From the IMG/VR virus record IMGVR_UViG_3300037468_000302, positions 1 through 42,533 of that record: DNA of 42,533 bases; one strand, 5' to 3'. The stretch is from a virus. This document shows positions 27,114-39,315 of the stretch, piece by piece. Under the pieces are notes generated by a model that saw only the letters and a list, made by a program, of their open reading frames with translations, ran no database searches and was not told the DNA's origin. Within the stretch, counting starts at the first letter, position 1, and each line of letters begins with the position of its first letter. The position numbers and the translations under genes are program-made.

Positions 27114-27131
27114 TAGTGTTTGGAGGATAAC

Positions 27132-28211
27132 ATGAGTGTGAGTAAGAAGGTTAGAGTAGCTATTATAGGAGTGGGGAATTGTGCATCTTCCCTGGTACAA
27201 GGAGTAGAATATTATAAGGATGCAGGGGATGTAGACATAGTTCCTGGTATTATGCATGTAAATCTTGGTGGTTATAGCATTGGAGATATACAAATTTCCG
27301 CTGCATTTGATGTGGTGAAAGGTAAAGTAGGGTTAGATTTATCCGATGCAATATTTGCTTATCCTAACAATACCTATAAATTCTGTGACGTGCCACCCAA
27401 ACATATTCCTGTTCTACGTGGTATGACACACGATGGTCTGGGAAAATATCTGTCGGAGATAGTAGAGAAAGACCCAGGACCGACAGTTAATGTAGCTCAG
27501 GTTCTAAGAGATACTGGCACTGATGTAGTAGTAAACTATTTGCCAGTTGGCTCGGAAGAGGCGACCAAATGGTATGTTGAGCAGGTACTGGATGCCGGAT
27601 GTGCTTTTGTGAATTGTATCCCTGTGTTTATTGGTAGTCAACCGTATTGGCAGAGAAGGTTTGTTGAAAAGCATTTGCCGATAATTGGTGATGATATAAA
27701 GAGCCAGGTGGGAGCTACTATAACTCACAGAGTTCTTACATCACTGTTTGAGGACAGAGGTGTAAGGTTAGATAGAACTTATCAACTGAACTTTGGTGGC
27801 AATACGGATTTCCTGAATATGCTGGAGCGTGAGCGTTTGGAGTCTAAGAAGATTTCCAAGACGAATGCTGTAGTCAGTATGGTGCACTCACATGATTTGA
27901 ATCCTGATGATGTACATGTTGGTCCAAGTGATTACGTTCCCTGGTTGACTGACCGGAAGTTCTGTTACATAAGGATGGAGGGAACAACCTTTGGAAATGT
28001 TCCTCTGAACCTCGAGCTGAAGTTAGAGGTATGGGATTCCCCTAATTCTGCAGGAGTAGTGATTGACGCTGTCCGATGTGCAAAACTAGCTATGGATAGG
28101 GGACAATACGGTGAGTTGATAGCTCCCTCAGCATATTTCATGAAAAGTCCCTTTATACAGGTAGAAGATGATGTAGCTAGAGATGCTCTTCTAGATTGGA
28201 TTAAGCAATAA
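27132..28211 (+). CDS. ino1: Myo-inositol-1-phosphate synthase
   Basis: 359 residues from ATG 27132 (GGAGGATAAC ahead), the length of bacterial Ino1 enzymes. [26 protein letters not shown] is the NAD-binding G-x-G-x-x-A/S start. [78 protein letters not shown] and [19 protein letters not shown] are the conserved blocks, including the catalytic Lys segments, and agree closely with actinobacterial Ino1. The enzyme turns glucose 6-phosphate into L-myo-inositol 1-phosphate. It is the first gene of an operon of DNA-modification-type genes and shares one base with the next. It appears intact and presumably active in the host cytoplasm. Confidence 0.93.
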
Positions 28212-29272
28212 TGTCAAAAGAAACTACTGTGCCAGATGGATTTGGGATTGAAACTCCTGAATGGCATCTCAATAAGATAACAGAATTCACGAAACTCAAA
28301 CAGCAGATAGGTGAGCCAAGTCCACACCTGACGGTAGTAGGTTATCTATGCCAAGACCTGGAGCTGATGGAGCGTGTATGGTTGATAGGTTGCTACGCTG
28401 CGACGTATTGTCTTCCATCTGCGCAGGTCATATTTGCGTTCTGGTCACACACCGATGTCAGAAAACGTCCTGATGAATTCCAGCAATGGTTGACGGAGAA
28501 CTGGAAAGGTATTGTTACTAGAACAGAACGTAGGACTGTAAGGACTGCTCCAAAGATGGCAAAATGCCTGGTTAGCTATGCGAACTGGCAGCGTGATGAG
28601 TTTCCCAGGATACGCAAGCTAAAGAATGATTCTAGCTTGACAGATAAAGAATACTACGATATCGTGTGGGAATCATCAAATCAGGTTTGGAGTTTCGGAA
28701 GGTATATTGTTATCAGGATGATAGAGGGTTTGCGCAGGTATTGTGCTATTCCGGCACAATTGTATGATTTACGTTCCATAGGTGGGTGGTCTCCTAAGAA
28801 ATGCCTGTGTTACTTATATCCTGATTATGCTGATGTTATACTGAAAGACGACAAGGAAGGTAACAGGGTTACAAATGAACTATTTGAAGACCTCCTAACA
28901 ACGATGCGTAAGAAGCTTCCAAGTTTAGATTATTATGTGTTAGCAGCCATGCTTTGTGAGTATAAGGGAGCATATGAGAACCACCATCAGTATGTGGGAT
29001 GGACCATTGACCAGGAACCTCTTCTGTATGATAAGGTTATAGCCTATTGGGGAAAGGAATTAGACCCCAAGGAGCTATGGGAAGCCAGGGCAGCATCATT
29101 TCCAAGAAAAGTTCTTGGTGAATTTGGTGGATGGAATGGTACACGCTGGGAGTTGGCTAAAATCCTGCGGGACTACGGTTACAATTGGTCTGACCTGAAA
29201 TATGATTATGTTTCCACGCTAAAGAGTGGAGACTTTTCTAAGCCAGTGAGGTGGCACAATGGGACAAACTAG
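28211..29272 (+). CDS. Helical DNA-modification enzyme, ADDT-like (amino acid:DNA transferase type)
   Basis: A 353-residue, mostly helical protein, starting on the last base of the Ino1 stop codon. The region LELMERVWLIGCYAATYCLPSAQVIF (about 50-75), a middle block RTVRTAPKMAKCLVSYANW, then FGRYIVIRMIEGLRRYCAIPAQLYDLRSIGGWSPKKCLCYLYPD and a C-terminal MLCEYKGAYENHHQYVGWTIDQE with WNGTRWELAKIL, resemble my memory of the phage ADDT family of thymine-hypermodification enzymes. ADDT enzymes attach an amino-type nucleophile to activated hmU in DNA; here the substrate may instead be inositol-derived. It overlaps the phosphatase gene by 14 nt. Medium-to-low certainty on the family. Confidence 0.5.
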   Translation: MSKETTVPDGFGIETPEWHLNKITEFTKLKQQIGEPSPHLTVVGYLCQDLELMERVWLIGCYAATYCLPSAQVIFAFWSHTDVRKRPDEFQQWLTENWKGIVTRTERRTVRTAPKMAKCLVSYANWQRDEFPRIRKLKNDSSLTDKEYYDIVWESSNQVWSFGRYIVIRMIEGLRRYCAIPAQLYDLRSIGGWSPKKCLCYLYPDYADVILKDDKEGNRVTNELFEDLLTTMRKKLPSLDYYVLAAMLCEYKGAYENHHQYVGWTIDQEPLLYDKVIAYWGKELDPKELWEARAASFPRKVLGEFGGWNGTRWELAKILRDYGYNWSDLKYDYVSTLKSGDFSKPVRWHNGTN

Positions 29273-29705
29273 GAACAGAATAAATACAGTTGTTAATGAC
29301 AGGTTATATCAACGAGGACAAATTTTATCCTGGAAAAGAGCAGATAAATTGGCTCTTTTCGAGGAGTTGAATATAGGCATAGTTGTGAACTTTTGGCCAA
29401 AATTAGACCCTGATATGTCAGATATGCCATGTTGGTACTGGTATCTTCCCTCAGGCTCTGATGACATGGTAAGTACACGAGTATCCAAGATGGCTCGTCT
29501 GTTAGCTAGTTTGTTAACTCATGGAGATTATTCTGCTCTTATATTGTGTGAGGCAGGTAAGACCAGGTCAGTATTCTTTGCTGGATTAGTTGTTCATTAT
29601 ATGCAGAATATTGCTGGCACAAAGGTATTGAGAGTGCTGGATAATACCATACCAGGAAACAGGATGAAGCCTTATATGTTGGAATATTTTAGGAATCTTA
29701 CATGA
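29259..29705 (+). CDS. Cysteine-based phosphatase (dual-specificity/PTP-like)
   Basis: A 148-residue protein. LILCEAGKTRSVFFAGLVVHYM holds the C-x5-R-S phosphate-binding loop (Cys, then E-A-G-K-T, then Arg-Ser) of DSP/PTP enzymes. NRINTVVNDRLYQRG, ELNIGIVVNFWPKLDPDM and WYWYLPSGSDD give the preceding strands and a possible acid loop. DSP-like folds include phosphoinositide and inositol-phosphate phosphatases. Sandwiched between inositol-phosphate synthase/ADDT-like and kinase genes with overlaps on both sides, it could remove phosphate from inositol 1-phosphate; this is inference. Confidence 0.7.
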   Translation: MGQTRNRINTVVNDRLYQRGQILSWKRADKLALFEELNIGIVVNFWPKLDPDMSDMPCWYWYLPSGSDDMVSTRVSKMARLLASLLTHGDYSALILCEAGKTRSVFFAGLVVHYMQNIAGTKVLRVLDNTIPGNRMKPYMLEYFRNLT

Positions 29706-30307
29706 TAATAAACATACGAGGTACTTCAGGTTCGGGCAAGACACATACTGTTAGGAAATTTATGGAGTATTGTGGGCTAGAGACCAGGTTGTATATGGAA
29801 GATAAGGTTATAGCTCATATGGTGCACTTTGACTTGATGCCTGTATATTTCATAGGTTCTTATGTGAACGTATGTGGGGGATGCGACAGTATTCCTACTC
29901 AGGATATGGCATGTAGTCTGGTAAGGCATTTCAGTCAGTTTGGGCATGTGATATTTGAAGGTTTGCTTATGAGTCATCTGTATGCCAGATATGCAGCCTT
30001 ATACCTGGAATTAACAGAGTTTGGAAATCCTTTCATATTTGCGTATATGGATACTCCACTTGACCTGTGTATAGATAGGGTTAAGCAGCGTAGATTAGAG
30101 AAAGGTAATCTGAAGGAGTTTAATCCACAAAATACCATTTCTCACTATGAGTCTACTTGGAGCACTGAAACTAAGTTTCAGGCTGTAGGTATTGCTACCT
30201 GCCATATAAATCATAGAAAGAATCCAGTTACTCAGATAATAGAACTCATAGACAGAGATAGATATATGAGTTTCGATTACAGCTATCGTGAGGAGTCATT
30301 TCGATGA
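29702..30307 (+). CDS. 5-hydroxymethyl-dU DNA kinase-like P-loop kinase
   Basis: A 201-residue protein. MIINIRGTSGSGKTHTVRKFM is a Walker A at the extreme N-terminus. YVNVCGGCDSIPTQDMACSLVRHF contains the G-G-x-D-x-I..Q-D pattern, HVIFEGLLMSHL is the Walker B-like strand, and AYMDTPLDLCIDRVKQRRLEKGNLKEFNP is the lid with R-x-x-R-R. This set matches the phage HMUDK-type kinases that phosphorylate 5-hydroxymethyluracil in DNA (thymidine hypermodification). It overlaps both neighbours by 4 nt (ATGA). It would create the phosphorylated base that the helical partner enzymes then substitute. Confidence 0.75.
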   Translation: MIINIRGTSGSGKTHTVRKFMEYCGLETRLYMEDKVIAHMVHFDLMPVYFIGSYVNVCGGCDSIPTQDMACSLVRHFSQFGHVIFEGLLMSHLYARYAALYLELTEFGNPFIFAYMDTPLDLCIDRVKQRRLEKGNLKEFNPQNTISHYESTWSTETKFQAVGIATCHINHRKNPVTQIIELIDRDRYMSFDYSYREESFR

Positions 30308-31221
30308 AATTCGATGAGAAATTACTAAGTTGGTACTGGTATTTTATCAATGAACGGCATGCGATTTATCTCCGTAGAGAAAGAGGGGATGAATGGCCAT
30401 GGACAGACGATGAAATACTTATGACATACAAGTTTACCAATATCTTCCGTGAGTTAGACACAGGCACGATTTGGCTCAGGGAGAATATCCGTGAACCTTA
30501 TGCGTTGCACCCTGAGTTATTCTTCAATATAGCTATGTATAGGCTATACAATTACATCCCAACTGCTGCAGAGATAATGGAAAAGATAGGATTTATAGAG
30601 AACGCTTGGCAGTTGGATGATGTAGTGAAGCTAGTATATGCCAGGCAAAAGAGAGGGGAAAGGATATTCACTGGTGCTCACATGATTACTGGTACACTTG
30701 GTGGTGATAAGGTTCATCAGGTGTTTGAGTTATGCCTTGGAGAATTGTGGAAGAACAGAAAGGCATTAGAACCAAGAAACATTGACAATTTGAAAATGTC
30801 TTTTAACAGACTAAACAAGCATAATCCAGGTTATGGTCCTTTCATTAGTTATGAGGTTATAACAGACCTGCGGCATACCAGATACCTGCAAGATGCCAAT
30901 GACATTATGATGTGGGCTAATGCTGGTCCTGGAGCCATGCGTGGGATTTGCAGGTTACTAGGTTTGAAAGTAAAGACTATGAAGGGTGGAGTTCCGAGTT
31001 TGGAAATCCGACACCAATATCCTAGCAAGGAAGAATATATAAAGTACATGAGAGCATTGCTGTCTACGTCTGACGATACTTTGGAGAAATGGTTGCCAAA
31101 CTTGGAAATGCGGGATATTGAGCATTCCCTCTGTGAATGGGATAAATATGAGAGGGTTAGGAATGGTGAAGGACGTCCTCGCAGTAAGTATGTTCCTCCA
31201 CAACTGAGACAACAAGTTTAG
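30304..31221 (+). CDS. HMUDK-helical/thymine-pyrophosphorylase-like DNA-modification protein
   Basis: A 305-residue helical protein. The N-terminal WYWYFINERHAIYLRRERGDEWPWTDDEILMTYKFTNIFRELDTGTIWLRENI is the signature of the helical domain of phage 5-hmdU DNA kinases/alpha-glutamyl-putrescinyl-thymine pyrophosphorylases (E-R..I..R-R-x-x-G..P-W-T-D-D..Y-x-F-x-N-x-F-R-E-x-D). In many phages it is fused to the kinase; here it is separate and overlaps it by 4 nt. The C-terminal part has GYGPFISYEVITDLRHTRYL and ANAGPGAMRGICRLLGL, in keeping with a DNA-glycosylase-like fold. The predicted role is substitution or activation of phosphorylated hmU in DNA. The stop region contains CAAGTTTAGT. Confidence 0.75.
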   Translation: MKFDEKLLSWYWYFINERHAIYLRRERGDEWPWTDDEILMTYKFTNIFRELDTGTIWLRENIREPYALHPELFFNIAMYRLYNYIPTAAEIMEKIGFIENAWQLDDVVKLVYARQKRGERIFTGAHMITGTLGGDKVHQVFELCLGELWKNRKALEPRNIDNLKMSFNRLNKHNPGYGPFISYEVITDLRHTRYLQDANDIMMWANAGPGAMRGICRLLGLKVKTMKGGVPSLEIRHQYPSKEEYIKYMRALLSTSDDTLEKWLPNLEMRDIEHSLCEWDKYERVRNGEGRPRSKYVPPQLRQQV

Positions 31222-31227
31222 TTAATC

Positions 31228-31491
31228 ATGAAAGGCAAACTAGTATATTACAGGTCCTTAGACAAGAAGGGATTGCTGACAAAAGCAGTATTAGACCAGA
31301 TAATCCTTGACTTTTCCAATAATATGCAATACGCTCCAGAAGAAATTGTAGCTAGAAGTGATGAAGTCGGAGATGATATTAGGGATTTAGTGACAGAAGT
31401 TACTAAAGGGTGTCCACCAGGACATGTTATAGTTTACCCTGTCATATCCAGAACATCTAGAAGATTTTATGGAGAGAGGAATCCACAATGA
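31228..31491 (+). CDS. Small unknown protein in the DNA-modification operon
   Basis: An 87-residue protein starting 6 nt after the upstream stop. It contains DLVTEVTKGCPPGHVIVYPVISRTSRRFYGERN, with a Gly-Pro-rich turn and basic C-terminus. No motif recognised. It overlaps the Nmad1 gene by 4 nt (ATGA). Confidence 0.5.
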   Translation: MKGKLVYYRSLDKKGLLTKAVLDQIILDFSNNMQYAPEEIVARSDEVGDDIRDLVTEVTKGCPPGHVIVYPVISRTSRRFYGERNPQ

Positions 31492-31880
31492 ATTTCAAGA
31501 ACGTAACTGTAACAAAGGAAGAGTTTGCTAATGTTCTGTTTGCATCCGCAAAGGTTATGACCCTGGTTGGTCTGATAAAGGAAATCACTGACCTGGTGTA
31601 TGACAAGAATCAGGATTATGGGGATGCCTGGCAACGATACGGTATATTCACTCCTCTTATTCGCATCAACGATAAAATATTGCGCACTGAGACGCTGTCG
31701 GATGGAAGGCAAGCAATAATCGCTGATGAAGGTATTGAGGAAACTCTGAAGGATATTGTAGGCTATGCAGTACTTGCTCTCATGTGGCTGAATGTCAACA
31801 CAGATGTAAAGTTGGAAAAGTTGACTGCACAAGAAAGATTTTGGGATTTAGCAGACAATGCTGACAGACAAGCCAGGTAA
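31488..31880 (+). CDS. DUF1599 (nucleotide modification associated domain 1) protein
   Basis: A 130-residue protein. LVYDKNQDYGDAWQRYGIFTPLIRINDKILRTETLSDGRQAIIADEGIEETLKDIVGYAVLALMWLNVNT matches DUF1599/Nmad1, with the K-N-x-D-Y-G-x-A-W motif and the E-E-T-L-x-D-I-x-G-Y-A-V-L-A-L helix. The family was named for recurring next to DNA-base modification genes and resembles all-alpha NTP pyrophosphohydrolase folds. A substrate such as a modified pyrimidine nucleotide is plausible. It overlaps both neighbours by 4 nt and 23 nt, linking the modification operon to the polymerase. Confidence 0.8.
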   Translation: MNFKNVTVTKEEFANVLFASAKVMTLVGLIKEITDLVYDKNQDYGDAWQRYGIFTPLIRINDKILRTETLSDGRQAIIADEGIEETLKDIVGYAVLALMWLNVNTDVKLEKLTAQERFWDLADNADRQAR

Positions 31881-34383
31881 GAATAATCCTATATGCCAAG
31901 AATGTGGTCTTTATAAAGGCTGCATTTCTCCGTTCATGAAGCCAAGTGGTTCAAAAGAACCACGAGTCCTAATAGTAGGAGAGGCTCCAGGAGAAGAGGA
32001 AGATAAGCATGGCATACCTTTCTACGGAAGGTCTGGAGTGTTACTACGCACCACAGTAGAAGGTGTAGGATTACAGAATGATGAAGTGACTTACACGAAC
32101 GTGGTCAGGTGCAGACCTCCAGATAACAAGATTTCCAAGAATGCTATAAAATATTGTAAAGTATTTGCTCTTGATGAAATACACGAATATGACCCAGAAT
32201 ATGTGTTACTTATGGGGAACAGTCCGTTAGAGGGGATTCTAGGCGAGATAGGCATAACGAATTGGCATGGTGTTATAATAAAGAAGTTTGGTAGAAAGTA
32301 TATGCCTTTGTATCATCCTGCATATATACTACGGAATGCTTCTGTGACTGACGAGTGGTTGACAGCGTTCTTATCTATAACCGAGGATGAAAAGGAAGCA
32401 CACGAGTATGAGCTGATAATACCTCATACACAAATAGAAGTGAAGCAGATGCAGATGCACCTGGAGGAATGGCAGCATATTTCTTTTGATACTGAGGTGA
32501 CTTCTCTCAATCCGTTCTCTGGGCATTGTAAACTATTAGCAGTATCATTTGCTGTTCCAGGTAGGAAATATGCTGTACCTTTGGACCATAAGAAGAGTTG
32601 GTTTAGGAATAACGTAACTGTAAAGACTGTTATAAGAGATATATTAGAAAGTCATACTGGTGGAGTGATAGGACAAAATCTCAAATTCGACCAATTGCAT
32701 GCTAGGAGGCACTTAGGAGCATATTTCACAGGCTATTCAGACACCATGCTTATAAGCCATATGTTAGATAGCAAGCCAGGACTACACGGTTTGAAGAGAT
32801 TGGCAGGTATATACTGTGGGATGTATGGTTATGAGGCTGAATTAGATGCTTATGTTACATCACACAGGGAGGCCAACCCAAGATTTGGTGGCAACTATGG
32901 TGAGATACCTTTGGAAATCTTGTTGCCATACGCTGCAGCAGATGCTGAGGCGACACTAAAAGTGTATGATACGTTATATGATAAGCTAACACCTAAGCAG
33001 CGGAATCTATTGAAAGAACTAGTTATGCAGTTCAGTGATATGTTGTGCGAAATACAGCATAATGGTATGGTGTTAGATAAGCACATGACTCGTAGGTATG
33101 TTAATTTGTATGAGTTGTTCTACAACGATTTATACACTAAGCTAATACATAATAAGCATGTAAAGAAACTCTTGGAAATCCATAAAGACAAGAAGGATTT
33201 CAAATTCAATCCGAATTCTAATCCTCAAATAGCAGAGCTATACTTTGATATATGTAAGATTCCTGTGGCTGAATATACTCCCACTGGAAAAGGCTCTACC
33301 AAGGCAACTCTCTATAAGAAAATAGAGCCAAGATTTCCAATATTGTATAGTGTGAGACAGTATAAATTGCTGGGTAAGATGCTGTCTACTTATCTTAGAC
33401 CTGCAGATACAGGTTCATGGTTGTCAGATGATGGCAGAGTAAGGTCAACATATAATTTGCACGGCACCAGGACTAGTCGTATATCTAGCAGCAATCCGAA
33501 TCTACAAAATATTCCGACGCCAGAGAAGGAACCTGGCACGTTGCTGGAGTATAAGCCTATAAAGAATATATTCACTCATTCCTATGTAGACCTGGCAGCT
33601 AAGAACTATGTAGATAGGTATTGTGGTGGGGTGTTATTATCTGCTGATTATTCAGGTATGGAACTTAGAGTATTTGCCAGCCTTGCCAGGTGCAAACCGA
33701 TGATAGAAATACATGAGTCAGGTATGGACTTTCACACAATGGTTGCCAGTATGGCTAGTGGTATTCCCTATGCTAAAATTGATAAGCCTACCAGATACAT
33801 ATACAAATGGACGAATTGGACTTTACTTTATGGAGGTGGTGTAGGAACTCTGGTGGCTATGTATGATATGAGTGAGGATGAGGCTAAGACGGTAGTAGAT
33901 AGGTATTATAAACAATTTCCTGAGGTACTGGAATACAGACAGGAATGTGTGGAGTTTGCGGAGAAGAACGGTTATATAGAAAGTCCATTTGGTAGGAGGG
34001 AGGGATTATCAGAGATAAATAGTCAGGATAAGCAATACAGGTCAAAGGCAGCACGTGAGGCTATAAACATGCCAGTGCAATCTGCTGCATCAGACCTGAC
34101 TTTATGTGCTGCTACGATTATTTCCAACCAACTGAGCGGCAGTGATGCTAAGCTAGTAAACACAGTTCATGATAGCATATTGCTTGATGTTCCTAGACGT
34201 GAAATAGATGCCATTGCAGATATGTGTATAGATGCAATGGAAAACATAAAGGAATTCAAAGAAGATTATTTTCCCAGTATAGACTTTGATTGGTTGATAT
34301 GTCCACTCAAGGCAGATATTGAAGTAGGTACTCACTATGGTTCAGAAATAAGTATAGAGGAATGGGAGGGCTTGTATGGATGA
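31858..34383 (+). CDS. Family-4 uracil-DNA glycosylase fused to family-A DNA polymerase
   Basis: An 841-residue protein. Residues 1-180: CQECGLYKGC..PFMKPSG..LIVGEAPGEEEDKHGIPFYGRSG and VVRCRPPDN...YC supply the family-4 UDG motifs and four Cys for an iron-sulphur cluster; YHPAYILR follows. Residues 200-390: proofreading exonuclease motifs FDTEVTSL, NLKFDQ and PYAAADAEATLKVYD. Residues 430-841: polymerase motifs ADYSGMELRVFASLA (A), the O-helix R-x3-Lys650-W-T-N-Trp654..YG, and VHDSILLD (C; Ser for the usual Glu). A phage polymerase with a UDG head would remove or avoid uracil during copying. Trp654 occupies the E. coli Pol I Phe762 position, which is unusual. Confidence 0.88.
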   Translation: MLTDKPGKNNPICQECGLYKGCISPFMKPSGSKEPRVLIVGEAPGEEEDKHGIPFYGRSGVLLRTTVEGVGLQNDEVTYTNVVRCRPPDNKISKNAIKYCKVFALDEIHEYDPEYVLLMGNSPLEGILGEIGITNWHGVIIKKFGRKYMPLYHPAYILRNASVTDEWLTAFLSITEDEKEAHEYELIIPHTQIEVKQMQMHLEEWQHISFDTEVTSLNPFSGHCKLLAVSFAVPGRKYAVPLDHKKSWFRNNVTVKTVIRDILESHTGGVIGQNLKFDQLHARRHLGAYFTGYSDTMLISHMLDSKPGLHGLKRLAGIYCGMYGYEAELDAYVTSHREANPRFGGNYGEIPLEILLPYAAADAEATLKVYDTLYDKLTPKQRNLLKELVMQFSDMLCEIQHNGMVLDKHMTRRYVNLYELFYNDLYTKLIHNKHVKKLLEIHKDKKDFKFNPNSNPQIAELYFDICKIPVAEYTPTGKGSTKATLYKKIEPRFPILYSVRQYKLLGKMLSTYLRPADTGSWLSDDGRVRSTYNLHGTRTSRISSSNPNLQNIPTPEKEPGTLLEYKPIKNIFTHSYVDLAAKNYVDRYCGGVLLSADYSGMELRVFASLARCKPMIEIHESGMDFHTMVASMASGIPYAKIDKPTRYIYKWTNWTLLYGGGVGTLVAMYDMSEDEAKTVVDRYYKQFPEVLEYRQECVEFAEKNGYIESPFGRREGLSEINSQDKQYRSKAAREAINMPVQSAASDLTLCAATIISNQLSGSDAKLVNTVHDSILLDVPRREIDAIADMCIDAMENIKEFKEDYFPSIDFDWLICPLKADIEVGTHYGSEISIEEWEGLYG

Positions 34384-34576
34384 CGATGACTTGTTACTAG
34401 TTCAAATAGAAGCACTACAGTCTTCTGTTGAAATGGTGAATTCTCTTATGGAACAAAACCGAGAATTGATAACAGCCTTAGAAAGGATTGTATCGGCAAA
34501 GTATTGGATTGGTAGGGATTATAAATTATTTGCCGAAGGAATTTTGCTAAAGATGAAGGAGAAACGCAATGGGTAG
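34376..34576 (+). CDS. Small coiled-coil protein
   Basis: A 66-residue protein with an acidic N-terminus (MDDDD) and heptad-like leucines/valines through SSVEMVNSLMEQNRELITALERIV. It overlaps the polymerase by 8 nt and the next gene by 8 nt. Unknown role, perhaps an accessory subunit. Confidence 0.55.
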   Translation: MDDDDLLLVQIEALQSSVEMVNSLMEQNRELITALERIVSAKYWIGRDYKLFAEGILLKMKEKRNG

Positions 34577-35072
34577 AGTAATAGAAGTTATGTTCCCTGG
34601 TGACGAGAAAGTAATAATAAATCTTGATGAACTCTTGGAAATCCATGAAGAAAATCTGATATCTGAATATGCCAAACAGGCATCATTTTATGCTTATTAT
34701 GGCACGCTATATAACCGTGCTGATAGGTCGGTTATGGAGTTGGATGCTAAGAAGGAATCCTTGTATGCCGAGATAGAATTGGACTATAGAGAGGAATATA
34801 AGGATGAGAAGACCACAGAGGGTAAAATCAAGTCATTAGTCTTGACGGATGAGAGTTATGCCAAACAGCTGACAAAATACAACTATGCCATATACCGCAA
34901 AGGTATTATGCGCACGCTTATGGATGCGTTGAAGATGAGAGCAGATATGCTAGTATCTATGGGAGCACATTTGCGTGCGGAATATGAGCAAACTGGCATG
35001 AACATGAAGAGGGATAAATTCCTCGAAGACTTTGAGGCTAGTTTAGACAAGATAAAGAAGAAGCAAGTTTAG
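34569..35072 (+). CDS. Helical protein upstream of ssDNA-binding protein, possible recombination mediator
   Basis: A 167-residue, almost fully helical, charged protein (LDELLEIHEENLISEYAKQASFYAYYGTLYNRADRSVMEL...TLMDALKMRADMLVSMGAHLRAEYEQTG). In phages with UvsX/gp32-type systems a similar helical protein next to the SSB gene acts like T4 UvsY, loading recombinase onto SSB-coated DNA. This fits the order here (this gene, SSB, SbcD, RecA). The sequence itself gives no decisive motif. The gene ends with a CAAGTTTAGT copy that runs into a TATAAT. Confidence 0.5.
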   Translation: MGRVIEVMFPGDEKVIINLDELLEIHEENLISEYAKQASFYAYYGTLYNRADRSVMELDAKKESLYAEIELDYREEYKDEKTTEGKIKSLVLTDESYAKQLTKYNYAIYRKGIMRTLMDALKMRADMLVSMGAHLRAEYEQTGMNMKRDKFLEDFEASLDKIKKKQV

Positions 35073-35078
35073 TATAAT
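35064..35078 (+). promoter_or_regulatory. CAAGTTTAGT element with embedded -10
   Basis: The repeated CAAGTTTAGT word overlaps a TATAAT at 35073-35078, and a structured RNA begins 11 nt later. No host-type -35 is present at normal spacing. It could be a promoter read by a phage sigma-like factor. Confidence 0.35.
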
Positions 35079-35088
35079 ATGATGAATA

Positions 35089-35180
35089 TGCCAGCTCTGC
35101 AACCCATAGAATTCAGCCTCCATGGGATGGGCAGCAAAACGATCTAGCTCCACAACGTGGTTCGAGTCCTCGGCTGGCAC
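35089..35180 (+). tRNA. tRNA-like element (degenerate or non-canonical)
   Basis: TGCCAGC (35089-35095) pairs over 7 bp with GCTGGCA (35173-35179) as an acceptor-like stem. GTGGTTCGAGTCC supplies a near-perfect T-arm (loop TTCGAGT; 4 of 5 stem pairs). Between them there is no canonical D-arm. A 17-nt stem-loop GCCTC-CATGGGA-TGGGC (35116-35132) would give a TGG (Pro) anticodon but lacks the usual U33. Total length is about 91 nt and CCA is not encoded. It may be a decayed tRNA, a class with odd arms, or a tRNA-like RNA. It contains the only GATC of the window (35141). Confidence 0.4.
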
Positions 35181-35221
35181 TTGAGTCCGCAAAGACTTAA
35201 TAAAATTTGAAAAGGAGAAAT

Positions 35222-36073
35222 ATGAGTACAAAAGTAGTTCCCACGAAACAGGTCAATAAACTTGATAAGTTACGAGAGAGGTTGTCCCAAATTGATACCG
35301 GAATGGGTTCCGGATTCTTCGGACCGAAAGAAGGTCGTAACCTTATCCGAATTCTGCCTCCTGTGGGCGATATGGAGTTTTTCTTTCAGCCAGTAGGTAA
35401 ACATTACTTCCCTCCGGATGGCAAGAAGTATTCCTATTGTCCAAGTTTCACAAGCGACGGTGAGCTGCCGTGTCCAGTTTGTGAATTGGTTACAGAATTG
35501 AAGAACGCTGGAGAAAAGAAACTGTCTGATGATTTACGTGTAAAGCGTTCTTTCTGGATGAATGTAATCAACCGAGACGATGAAGGCAAGGGTGTTGCAG
35601 TATATACACCTGGCATAATTGTATTCTCGGAGATTTCCAGTCTGATTACAGACCCAGATTATGGTGATATCACTGACGTTCTGAACGGTTATGATATCAT
35701 CGTTGAAAAGAGTGGTACAGGTAGAGAGACCGAATACCACGTCAAACCTCGTCCCAAAGTTACTCCTCTAACAGCGGATGAGGACCAGCTGGAAGCGTGG
35801 TTGGAAAAGGCTAAAGACTTGTCGTTCATAGAGGTCAGTGATGACCCAGAGGAAGACAAGACTCTGTCTAAGGGACACGCTATCTATGTTCTTCCCTACG
35901 ACCGCATCATGAAAGAGTACAAACTGGATGAATTCTTTGGTGCTGAGGAAGAAGAGGAGGAAGAGGAAGAAGAGGCTGAGGAAGAAGAGGAGGAAGAAAC
36001 TCCCAAGCCTAAAAAACATGCAGTAACCGAAGAGGTAGAATATCGTCGGCAGCGACGTGCTGTTCGGAGATAG
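35222..36073 (+). CDS. gp32-like single-stranded DNA-binding protein
   Basis: 283 residues from ATG 35222 (AAGGAGAAAT ahead; a TTG at 35207 precedes the ribosome site). The pattern RNLIRILPPVGDMEFFFQPVGKHYF..CPSF..CPVCELVTEL has the Cys/His zinc site of T4 gp32-type SSBs, followed by an OB-type region with basic/aromatic residues (KRSFWMNVINRD; EYHVKPRPKVTPLT). The C-terminus is a long Glu run (about residues 240-262) ending in a basic tail, the acidic protein-interaction tail usual for SSBs. It coats ssDNA during replication and recruits polymerase, helicase and recombination proteins. Confidence 0.85.
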   Translation: MSTKVVPTKQVNKLDKLRERLSQIDTGMGSGFFGPKEGRNLIRILPPVGDMEFFFQPVGKHYFPPDGKKYSYCPSFTSDGELPCPVCELVTELKNAGEKKLSDDLRVKRSFWMNVINRDDEGKGVAVYTPGIIVFSEISSLITDPDYGDITDVLNGYDIIVEKSGTGRETEYHVKPRPKVTPLTADEDQLEAWLEKAKDLSFIEVSDDPEEDKTLSKGHAIYVLPYDRIMKEYKLDEFFGAEEEEEEEEEEAEEEEEEETPKPKKHAVTEEVEYRRQRRAVRR

Positions 36074-36075
36074 TA

Positions 36076-37260
36076 TTGAAAATCTGTCACTTTGCGGACT
36101 CACATATAGGTGCTAGTACAGACGGTCCAACGGATTCAGAAACTGGCTTGAACGGGAGAGTGCTAGATTTTCTGGATTCGTTGGACTGTTTAATTGACTA
36201 TTGCATAGATAACAATGCAGATATCGTGTTATTTGCAGGGGATGCCTTCAATAAACATTCACCAAATGCTGTTATGCTGAACGAATATACCAAACGAATA
36301 TATAGGTTATCACGCTATTGTCCCGTGGTATTGCTGGTTGGAAATCATGATGTTCCTTATGCTAATGCAGAAAAGGTATCATCATTGGCAGTGTATAATG
36401 CTCTTAATTTGGACAACATTATAATAGGCAATAAATTCGAAGTTCTGGATATAGATACTAAGGGAGGACCATTACAAGTTGCTACATTTCCTTATCCTTC
36501 CAGACAAATATTCAAGTCACAGAAGGACATTTCCAATAAGCTAAAAGAGTTGGAGGAATTGATAGATGATAAATCTCCAGCTATACTACTTGGTCATTTT
36601 GGTGTACAGGGAGCAGCTATACAAAGTGGATTAGCAAGCTATCACATAAATGATGAGGCTCAGTTAGATATGTCGTGGTTGAAAAGAGGACCATGGGACT
36701 ACGTTGCTCTTGGTCATATTCATAACTATCAGATTTTGCATGACTCTCCACCAGTAATATATCCTGGCAGTATAGATAGGGTGGACTTTGGAGAGGAGTT
36801 TGACGATAAAGGGTTTGTATGGGTGGATATTTCCAAGAAATCTCTAAGTCATTATTTTGTAAGTGTAAATCCCAGACCGATGGTTACGCTAAACTATTCA
36901 TTCGATAACACCTCTAGGCATATGACTAGAAAGATAGTAGATGATATAGAGAGTAGAGATTTGAAAGACAGTTTGGTTAGAGTAAGGATTAGTGCTCCAG
37001 AGAAATTATCTGATATGATTAGAACTGCAGAAATCTATGATGCACTGAAAGGTAGTTATTATATACACTCATTATCTATAAATCGCATCAGAGATTTGCC
37101 TGAATCTAGACTAGGTGACGTTGGTGTTCCGTTATCGTCCCTGCCAAGTTTAGATTTAATAGATAGGTACTTTACATCTGTCAGCAAGCTAGTAGGTAAA
37201 GAGAAGAGAGAATTGTTAAAGTTGGCTGCAGATATTGTTCAGGAGGTAGACAATGAATGA
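36076..37260 (+). CDS. SbcD/Mre11-like (T4 gp47-type) nuclease subunit
   Basis: A 394-residue protein beginning at TTG 36076 (CGGAGA ahead, 2 nt after the SSB stop); the frame begins directly with the first metal motif, so no other start is possible. KICHFADSHIG, DIVLFAGDAFNKHSP, VLLVGNHDVPY, LLGHFGV and ALGHIHNYQ are the five calcineurin-like phosphoesterase motifs. The ATPase partner (SbcC/gp46) is not in this window. The enzyme would process DNA ends for recombination-dependent replication. Confidence 0.85.
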   Translation: MKICHFADSHIGASTDGPTDSETGLNGRVLDFLDSLDCLIDYCIDNNADIVLFAGDAFNKHSPNAVMLNEYTKRIYRLSRYCPVVLLVGNHDVPYANAEKVSSLAVYNALNLDNIIIGNKFEVLDIDTKGGPLQVATFPYPSRQIFKSQKDISNKLKELEELIDDKSPAILLGHFGVQGAAIQSGLASYHINDEAQLDMSWLKRGPWDYVALGHIHNYQILHDSPPVIYPGSIDRVDFGEEFDDKGFVWVDISKKSLSHYFVSVNPRPMVTLNYSFDNTSRHMTRKIVDDIESRDLKDSLVRVRISAPEKLSDMIRTAEIYDALKGSYYIHSLSINRIRDLPESRLGDVGVPLSSLPSLDLIDRYFTSVSKLVGKEKRELLKLAADIVQEVDNE

Positions 37261-37402
37261 TATGATAATAGGTATAACACTGGCAATTATTATTTTATTG
37301 ATTAGGAAATTGGTGGTACAATACGGGATTTCCAAGAAAGAAATAGAACTAGAAAAGATGGCACAGGAAGACATGAAAGAAGCCATGAGGCATTATGACT
37401 AA
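37253..37402 (+). CDS. Small single-pass membrane protein (49 residues)
   Basis: Begins MNDMIIGITLAIIILLIRKL with a perfect AGGAGG ribosome site 6 nt before the ATG, overlapping the SbcD-like stop by 8 nt and the RecA start by 8 nt. The first 20 residues form one transmembrane helix; the rest is a charged helix (KKEIELEKMAQEDMKEAMRHYD). Its small size hides it from length-filtered gene calls. Function unknown. Confidence 0.65.
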   Translation: MNDMIIGITLAIIILLIRKLVVQYGISKKEIELEKMAQEDMKEAMRHYD

Positions 37403-38375
37403 GATTTCTGATGATTTGAAACATAAGAAATTGAGCGTTATGTTCCTTGATGATGATGATTCTCCATGCGTGGTATCGGAGTGGGTAAGTACAGGGTGTT
37501 TGGCTCTAGATGCCATAATGGGTGGAGGCTTGCCAGTCGGTAGGTTAGTAGAAATATTTGGAGACCCCTCGACTGGCAAGTCTCTTATAGCATCTCAGAT
37601 AGCAGCCATAGCACAGCAAATGGAAGCTACGGTATTATACATAGATACTGAGACAGCGGTATCTAAAGACATGATGGCTGAGGTAGGAGTTGATATTTCC
37701 AAACTCCTATACTCATCTCCTGATACAGTTGAGGAAGTATTCACGATTATAGACGAAACGATAGAATCTAAGCTGAGCGTAGACCCTGATGCTTTACTAG
37801 TTATAGTATGGGACAGTATAGCTGCCACCTCTATCCAACAGGAAATGGATGCTGACTTTGGAAAAGCTACAATGGGAAGGCACGCTGCACTTATAAGCCA
37901 GGGACTCAGGAAGATTACCAGGAAGATAGCTAAGAACAGTGTTTGCTTTATAGCCTTGAACCAGACCAAGGAAAAGATAGGTGTAATGTTTGGGGATAAT
38001 GTCACTACATTTGGAGGAAAGGCAGTATCGTTCCACTCTTCTATTAGACTTCACCTTCACATGGGTGGTAAGATAAAGATAGACAAGCATATAATAGGCA
38101 TAAATGTGAGGGCAGTTACGGATAAGAATAAGGTAGCAATACCTTATAGGGAGGCAATACTTCCGATTTACTTTGGGCACGGAATAGATGATGCTGAGGC
38201 AACATATATATTTCTGAAGGATGCAGAGGTTATAGCTGTCAGTGGTTCATCCAATACTATTTCCATCTTTGGTGCAGAATTCAAGTTCAAGAGAACTGCT
38301 TGGGATAAACTGTATGAAGATAATTATGATGCTATTGCAGCAATTGTTATGAGTGTCTATGATACTGCTAATTGA
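37395..38375 (+). CDS. RecA/UvsX-like recombinase
   Basis: A 326-residue protein. TGCLALDAIMGGGLPVGRLVEIFGDPSTGKSLIASQIA has the RecA N-terminal signature and Walker A (GDPSTGKS). VLYIDTETAVS, ALLVIVWDSIAAT (Walker B), CFIALNQTKEKIG (loop 1) and GGKAVSFHSSIRL (loop 2) are the expected motifs in order. It is shorter than bacterial RecA, like phage UvsX. It pairs homologous DNA for recombination-dependent replication with the SSB, UvsW and SbcD-like proteins of this window. Confidence 0.9.
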   Translation: MTKISDDLKHKKLSVMFLDDDDSPCVVSEWVSTGCLALDAIMGGGLPVGRLVEIFGDPSTGKSLIASQIAAIAQQMEATVLYIDTETAVSKDMMAEVGVDISKLLYSSPDTVEEVFTIIDETIESKLSVDPDALLVIVWDSIAATSIQQEMDADFGKATMGRHAALISQGLRKITRKIAKNSVCFIALNQTKEKIGVMFGDNVTTFGGKAVSFHSSIRLHLHMGGKIKIDKHIIGINVRAVTDKNKVAIPYREAILPIYFGHGIDDAEATYIFLKDAEVIAVSGSSNTISIFGAEFKFKRTAWDKLYEDNYDAIAAIVMSVYDTAN

Positions 38376-39315
38376 TGGGAACAATTTGGCATATAAGTGT
38401 AGGTTTGTGTTTAGCTTATCCTACAAAGGTATGGATGTTTCTGTAACCTATGGATTCATCAGTGTTCTATCCAGTCTTATGAGCAAATATAAGCCTTCCT
38501 CTATTATTGTATGTTGGGATGGAGGATTACCTGATTTCAGACGTGAGGCTCTACCTCAATATAAGGCTAATAGGGTGCATGACTGGGAAGAGGGAGAGCG
38601 TGATGAATTCTACAGGCAGATAAATGAGCTATGCGACTTTATACTTCCGATAATGGGAGTTATTTCCATTCAGCAGCAGGGAGCAGAAGCGGATGATTTA
38701 CTGTATCATGCTTCCAGAATCTTAGACGAGGAAGACATAATAATAGTGACTTCTGACAAGGATTTATATCAGGCATGTAATGGAAATGTTAGAGTTCTTC
38801 ATGGTGATACGCTCATGACAAAGAAAGATGTAGAGGACTACATAGGGTTGCCATTCAATAACCTAACAGATTGGAGAGCATTACAGGGTGATAAGACTGA
38901 TAACATTCCTGGTGTAGCTGGAATTGGTCAGGTTACAGCTACAAAACTGCTGGCTATATTTGGGGATGTAGTAGGTGTATATAATGCTGCCATGCGCATA
39001 AATCCAAAGAAGGATTTGATGAGTGATAGTATGGCAGCTAGGATTTGTTCATTTGGTATGGCTGCGCTAATAACCAATATAGTGGTGGCAAAACTATATC
39101 TGGATAAGGTAGGAGCACGAATAGCTATTATTTCCAATATCTATCCTTACAATGGTGCTAACATAGTTATGCTGAAAAGGTTCTTTATGTCTAGGGCATT
39201 CACATCTTTCCTGGCATCAGATTTATTCACTAATGTTAGGAAATTGAAGCCTCCTAAGATAAATCATAAAGCTGTGTTTCCAGTGAATATTGGTAGGAGG
39301 TTCCCAGTTGAATAA
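38359..39315 (+). CDS. 5'-3' exonuclease (FEN/T4 RNase H-like)
   Basis: 318 residues from ATG 38359 (the GTG at 38353 is also in frame, but MILLIDGNN is the natural start). LLIDGNNLAYK, IVCWDGGLPDFRREALPQYKANR, AEADDLLY, IIVTSDKDLYQACNG and LQGDKTDNIPGVAGIGQVTATKLL are the metal-binding Asp clusters and the helix-hairpin-helix of the FEN family. It removes RNA primers and flaps during lagging-strand synthesis. It overlaps RecA by 17 nt. Confidence 0.88.
   Translation: MILLIDGNNLAYKCRFVFSLSYKGMDVSVTYGFISVLSSLMSKYKPSSIIVCWDGGLPDFRREALPQYKANRVHDWEEGERDEFYRQINELCDFILPIMGVISIQQQGAEADDLLYHASRILDEEDIIIVTSDKDLYQACNGNVRVLHGDTLMTKKDVEDYIGLPFNNLTDWRALQGDKTDNIPGVAGIGQVTATKLLAIFGDVVGVYNAAMRINPKKDLMSDSMAARICSFGMAALITNIVVAKLYLDKVGARIAIISNIYPYNGANIVMLKRFFMSRAFTSFLASDLFTNVRKLKPPKINHKAVFPVNIGRRFPVE

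Follow-up and report, generated by a model that had tools for sequence, protein, structure and literature searches.

Tryptophan at position 762 marks a clade of UDG-polymerase A fusions in uncultured phages

The window, i.e. the whole 42,533-nt stretch of the IMG/VR virus record IMGVR_UViG_3300037468_000302 that was analysed, carries an open reading frame with exactly the bounds given in an earlier note, which had been made from the letters alone; its product comprises 841 aa (Table 1). That note had read the protein as a proofreading PolA fused to a UDG, and Pfam indeed places three domains along the one chain, UDG, then DNA_pol_A_exo1, then DNA_pol_A. The DnaQ-like exonuclease domain retains the D-E-D-Y-D set in the same form as E. 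coli (MAFFT alignment), and the family-A hallmarks R754, K758, Y766 (E. coli numbering) and the catalytic Asp residues are present, as judged from Pfam and the alignment with E. coli. An AlphaFold model of the protein, for which 25 clade sequences served as input, has a mean pLDDT of 89.6 and contains a helix at residues 643-657. Its best structural match is 6vdd (Z 35.4, rmsd 2.4, 560 residues aligned, corresponding to model residues 185-832); UDG structures are absent among the structural matches listed for the whole-protein model, because the polymerase part fills that list. The genes downstream code for a UvsY-like protein, a gp32-like SSB, a calcineurin-like (MRE11-like) nuclease, RecA, and a 5'-3' exonuclease.

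Table 1. Position of the polymerase gene, its domains and key residues, and neighbouring genes in the window
Feature	Position	Strand	Basis
ADDT (amino acid:DNA transferase) homologue	28211..29272	+	PF18724 7.3e-12
P-loop kinase-like protein	29702..30307	+	PF13671 below cut-off; phrog_800 3e-16
5-hmdU DNA kinase helical-domain protein	30304..31221	+	PF18723 1.7e-51
Nucleotide modification associated domain 1 protein (DUF1599)	31488..31880	+	PF07659 8.8e-12; overlaps polymerase start
UDG - 3'-5' exonuclease - family-A DNA polymerase fusion, 841 aa	31858..34383	+	ORF reading, Pfam, phmmer
Family-4 UDG domain, residues 13-166	31894..32355	+	PF03167 4e-26 (31-166); 1ui0 5.5e-27 (13-162)
UDG motif GEAPG, residues 41-45	31978..31992	+	Alignment including 1ui0
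UDG motif HPA, residues 153-155	32314..32322	+	Alignment including 1ui0
3'-5' proofreading exonuclease domain, residues 188-377	32419..32988	+	PF01612 5.9e-19; D-E-D-Y-D as E. coli
DNA polymerase A domain, residues 440-828	33175..34341	+	PF00476 1.5e-76; 6vdd Z 35.4
O helix (motif B), residues 643-657	33784..33828	+	Helix in model; aligned with E. coli 754-766
Tyr647 = E. coli R755 = Taq R660	33796..33798	+	Y in 39/39 Trp762 rows
Trp651 = E. coli A759 = Taq T664	33808..33810	+	W in 37/39 Trp762 rows
Trp654 (TGG) = E. coli F762 = T7 Y526	33817..33819	+	phmmer, MAFFT
Thr655 = E. coli G763	33820..33822	+	T/S in 39/39 Trp762 rows, G in 49/54 Phe762 rows
Motif C TVHDSI, residues 769-774	34162..34179	+	Alignment with E. 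coli/T7
Downstream replication/recombination genes	34569..39315	+	Profile matches; order kept in relatives

Residues were assigned by phmmer against Klenow and by aligning the protein to E. coli MG1655 PolA and T7 gp5 with MAFFT. Both pair R646, K650, W654 and Y658 of the window protein with R754, K758, F762 (T7 Y526) and Y766 of E. coli. The earlier reading of Lys650 followed by W-T-N-Trp654 is thus correct, and two independent alignments agree on its central claim, that this Trp occupies the 762 position of Pol I; placement of Trp654 elsewhere, the outcome named there as speaking against the claim, did not occur. The window protein shares R754, K758, Y766, the catalytic Asp and the exonuclease residues with E. 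coli Pol I and T7 gp5, but differs from both in Trp762, Trp759, Tyr755 and Thr763.

For comparison, 94 PolA rows including the window were aligned, of which 39 have Trp, 54 Phe and one Tyr at position 762; as the rows were gathered from the window protein and its kin, 39/94 is not a population frequency. Identical sequences entered once (L006, which equals the window, was left out, as were L007 and L030, which duplicate L001 and L005), and some near-copies such as L018/L019 and L024/L025 are contained in the set. Tyr755, Gly768 and Thr or Ser at 763 occur in all 39 Trp762 rows and Trp759 in 37 of them; Phe762 rows mostly have Gly763 (49/54) and never Trp759. Trp762 is therefore a clade signature within the co-conserved set Y755/W759/W762/T or S763/G768. 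Position 883 behaves differently from what had been supposed: HDSI in motif C had been called uncommon, but 20 of the 54 Phe762 rows have Ser as well, so that it does not serve as a rare marker.

The use of residue 762 as a predictor of viral replication style rests, in the published material available to us, on Phe, Tyr and Leu classes only. These are the classes given in the consulted parts of Nasko 2018 (PMC6302109) and of a further survey (PMC13228545); the former counts 934 Leu, 691 Tyr and 420 Phe among 2,095 PolA, and the remaining 50 might include Trp. In Keown 2022, IMG/VR v3 was queried and a PolA was retained only with F, L or Y at this position (PMC9069017), so that a Trp762 class was excluded by construction. 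A limited literature search found no report of Trp at 762; its matches to F667W were to a lipoxygenase paper. The window PolA, having Trp, belongs to none of the Leu762, Tyr762 and Phe762 clades. The earlier note had called Trp at this position uncommon, which holds in that it lies outside the reported classes; it is, however, no isolated oddity but the state of a whole clade.

Two protein-guided scans of IMG/VR yielded 5 and 39 loci, and a DNA pattern encoding K-x-x-N-W-T-L-x-[YF]-G-G retrieved 36 stretches, all of which decode to a PolA O helix, ruling out a sequencing slip or a one-off. The Trp version of the ordinary helix K-[AST/P]-[VIM]-N-x-G, with its usual Gly763, gave no match as compared with at least 120 for the Phe version, so that Trp762 within an ordinary helix can be dismissed; these patterns span part of PolA sequence space, and the counts are not a full census. 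In a UDG-anchored scan of IMG/VR, which is blind to residue 762, the best 80 of 575 loci included 56 with an alignable PolA domain, 18 of them with Trp762 and 38 with Phe762; the other 24 were without one. Isolated phages offered no close relative: among 4327 matching phage records, no full-length relative above about 29% identity was found. One GTDB scan returned a single match of 25% identity, hence no close relative either. Trp762 marks one group of uncultured phages.

Whether or not the O-helix columns are included, the trees unite all Trp762 rows in one clade (support 100/99), in which two Phe762 rows, L017 and L089, are nested; L017 is sister to the Trp-bearing L011 (support 100/100). 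Neither a clade of the Trp762 rows alone (p 4e-92) nor a sister relationship between L017 and L089 (p 1e-4) survives the AU test, for which the groups were named after the tree had been seen. The nesting and the rejection of the alternatives point to a single gain of Trp762 and two later reversions to Phe within the clade. Alternatively, recombination may have spread a Phe-type patch: judged by eye, the divergence between L011 and L017 is higher in the O-helix region than in the rest. In both L017 and L089, positions 755 and 759 changed along with 762, to Arg and Ser. An ORF upstream of the polymerase gene of the revertant L017 (3-1865) resembles, by eye, a fusion of a methyltransferase with a sliding-clamp-like protein.

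The earlier note had also spoken of a phage predicted to carry modified uracil/thymine derivatives, and genes of an ADDT and a 5-hmdU DNA kinase immediately upstream of the polymerase provide a thymine-hypermodification context. Relatives retain the order of these genes and of the replication and recombination genes downstream. With both PF18723 and PF18724 in the window, the phage DNA probably carries hypermodified thymine. PF00303 (thymidylate synthase/hydroxymethylase) has no match in the 42.5-kb window, and occurs in four of five related records of at least 70 kb (the two enzymes were not told apart). HMUDK or ADDT was detected in 11 of the 15 Trp762 records that reach 20 kb, compared with two of 15 Phe762 UDG fusions (Fisher p 0.0025, a statistic that ignores kinship) and one of 16 Phe762 records retrieved by pattern; against all 31 Phe762 records the p value is 2.6e-5, again disregarding kinship. 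Four of the 15 long Trp762 records, which may be fragments, showed neither gene, and both genes occur outside Trp762 phages as well. Only short surroundings are available for the polymerase genes of the two Phe762 revertants, L017 and L089. Since the association amounts to one clade, it does not constitute independent evidence for a link between polymerase and modification.

Next to the ADDT gene, a small protein and the P-loop kinase, the window (27120-30307) also contains a gene for a myo-inositol-1-phosphate synthase (PF01658); the small protein has a CX5R phosphatase-like motif, seen by eye, and no Pfam match. PF01658 was found in five of 37 records searched, all five being Trp762 phages, and in none of 15 Phe762 fusions; L001, L014 and L016 retain the cassette. 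It could serve an inositol-derived thymine hypermodification.

Adding 95 to Taq numbering, the usual offset, gives E. coli numbering, by which Arg587, Arg660 and Thr664 of Taq become positions 682, 755 and 759; the offset agrees with the alignment (R659/R754, K663/K758, F667/F762). The equivalents in the window protein are Pro, Tyr and Trp, and 682 is Pro in 33 of the 39 Trp762 rows. In KlenTaq, these three residues touch the C5-substituents of modified dUTP, according to the part of that study available (PMC10487964). As residues 755 and 759 of the window protein coincide with these contact positions, an adaptation to C5-modified pyrimidines is plausible, and we infer that the O-helix set is an active-site adaptation linked to them. 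The window protein is best explained as the replicative, proofreading family-A enzyme of a tailed phage from the uncultured fraction; its fused UDG would excise uracil, stemming from misincorporated dUMP or deaminated cytosine, from the phage DNA at or near the fork; such removal would count more in phages running on dUMP and 5-hydroxymethyl-dUMP. With less certainty, the remodelled O helix might alter the dNTP pocket: W762, replacing Phe or Tyr, would pack against the sugar of the incoming nucleotide, and Y755 and W759 would line the pocket on its major-groove side, the location of C5-substituents. C5-modified pyrimidines might thereby be handled well as nucleotide or in the template/primer. 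This reading as a whole, a replicative proofreading PolA of a hypermodified-thymine phage with UDG repair and an O helix suited to C5-modified pyrimidines, we consider to have an even chance of being right.

Packing epistasis accounts for the data nearly as well. The O-helix set would then be a lineage signature kept by internal packing and unconnected with DNA modification, W762 acting like Phe or Tyr and perhaps changing speed or ddNTP discrimination. As with the published Leu762, Tyr762 and Phe762 clades, in which residue 762 follows PolA phylogeny, and of which the Leu762 clades are monophyletic and thought to require compensatory changes in the sections consulted (PMC13228545), Trp762 was gained once; moreover, W759 is dispensable in two of the 39 Trp762 rows and two lineages reverted to Phe. 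That the co-changing positions 755 and 759 are the very residues reported to face C5-substituents in the available part of the KlenTaq study (PMC10487964), and that modification genes are over-represented relative to Phe762 UDG fusions, speaks against packing alone, which we regard as a serious contender, somewhat short of an even chance.

Adaptation to C5-modified pyrimidines is to be seen in the light of the hydroxymethyluracil phages. SPO1-type phages are known for this base, and their representatives L045 and L046 keep Phe762 in the alignment, as does L043, the record of which is annotated with a pyrimidine hydroxymethylase; hence Trp762 is not needed for hydroxymethyluracil. Hypermodification is thought to follow polymerisation. 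The most far-reaching formulation, that Trp762 constitutes a fourth natural 762 class with an O helix (Y755/W759/W762/T763/G768) rebuilt for C5-hypermodified DNA and a fused, active UDG that excludes uracil, is put forward as a tentative proposal that may well prove too strong.

The UDG domain had been read as family 4 with the GEAPG motif and four Cys kept, and this reading is borne out by alignment with the Thermus thermophilus enzyme 1ui0: C13, C16, C85, C100, GEAPG, Asn81 and HPA all have counterparts, so that by sequence alone the motifs and the four Fe-S cysteines of the family are complete. Unlike 1ui0, the domain is fused to a polymerase and has Tyr56 behind Phe55. This Tyr56 (32023-32025), following the uracil-stacking Phe55, is peculiar to the window protein among 20 aligned rows, the other 19 having V, I, T or Q. 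The covalent, uracil-binding UdgX is marked by a KRRRxH loop; none was seen by eye after C85 of the window UDG, and UdgX chains match it at about 1e-13, more weakly than 1ui0.

A domain of this kind might also be a sensor, which binds template uracil in front of the polymerase and makes the enzyme stall, or a DNA-binding platform. Such a non-catalytic role is possible because SPO1L1, LysYB1, Lebethron and Serbin keep the UDG fold despite changed catalytic positions, and fused isolates outside the clade, Yersinia P744 among them, often have altered ones (L043 keeps all 13 tested positions and L054 most). Within the Trp762 clade, by contrast, the tested catalytic and cysteine positions are kept throughout: in 28 of 29 rows with a complete N-terminus (five further rows with an incomplete one were left out of this count) all 13 are intact, and the 29th differs by A43S only, from which catalytic constraint on the domain is deduced. 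Intein-like inserts in L024, L025 and L097, moreover, sit at GEAPG. A sensor or platform role in the clade therefore seems unlikely to us. The inserts (GEAPG-C...HN-SEED) include an HNH-like stretch, recognised by eye, and the start of L097 is cut off. Inteins favour functional motifs.

The protein might simply be an ordinary SPO1-type UDG-PolA, differing by sequence divergence and offering nothing new. Its architecture is known: N-terminal UDG, 3'-5' exonuclease and polymerase follow each other in one chain in the SPO1 gp31 type and, by the published description as far as available, in the UDG-exo-pol fusion gp205 of PaBG (PMC7412058). SPO1-type relatives match 96% of the window protein at 26-27% identity. 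The polymerase of Thermus phage phiLo (PDB 9qhs) likewise combines a GEAPG-bearing UDG with a PolA domain, but has 1175 aa (1142 residues in the solved chain), many insertions, and the O helix KGASFSLVYG, read by eye as Phe762 and Ser763, in place of Trp762/Thr763; L281 (3857-7384) is this phiLo protein (100%-range match). The linked UDG, described as intriguing in the earlier note, is thus present with intact motifs, but is no curiosity, such fusions being widespread in IMG/VR (56 of the best 80 of 575 UDG-anchored loci) and published. The UDG of SP-15 is stand-alone; SP-15 is described, in the portion available, as a hypermodified-thymine phage (PMC5977210).

Mere divergence accords poorly with the O helix. 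The 38 other fusions that could be aligned among those best 80 loci have Phe762, as do SPO1L1 and LysYB1 (the latter with Gly763), the UDG catalytic positions of which are changed besides; Trp lies outside the classes of the surveys as far as seen; and the coupled Y755/W759/W762/T763 set refutes this explanation in part, leaving it rather improbable. The new part is Trp762 with its clade-defining active-site set. As viral replication style is deduced from residue 762 in metagenomic work, a coherent Trp762 clade means that the classification is incomplete. Trp762 PolA also provides a natural, pre-evolved polymerase for studying how 762 and its neighbours set nucleotide choice, and if the link to modified thymine were true, these enzymes could serve for writing or copying C5-modified DNA. 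An action of the UDG on hydroxymethyluracil or further bases, for instance to edit DNA in the course of hypermodification, is suggested by the close linkage of polymerase and 5-hmdU kinase genes, but is highly improbable given the uracil-specific family-4 motifs and the ruin that genome-wide removal of hydroxymethyluracil would bring to the phage's own DNA.

A UDG and a 3'-5' exonuclease-like part also occur together without a polymerase in many ORFs of 400-470 aa (L108, L111, L113, L117, L123, L124, L130, L133 and others), as if the module had split off.
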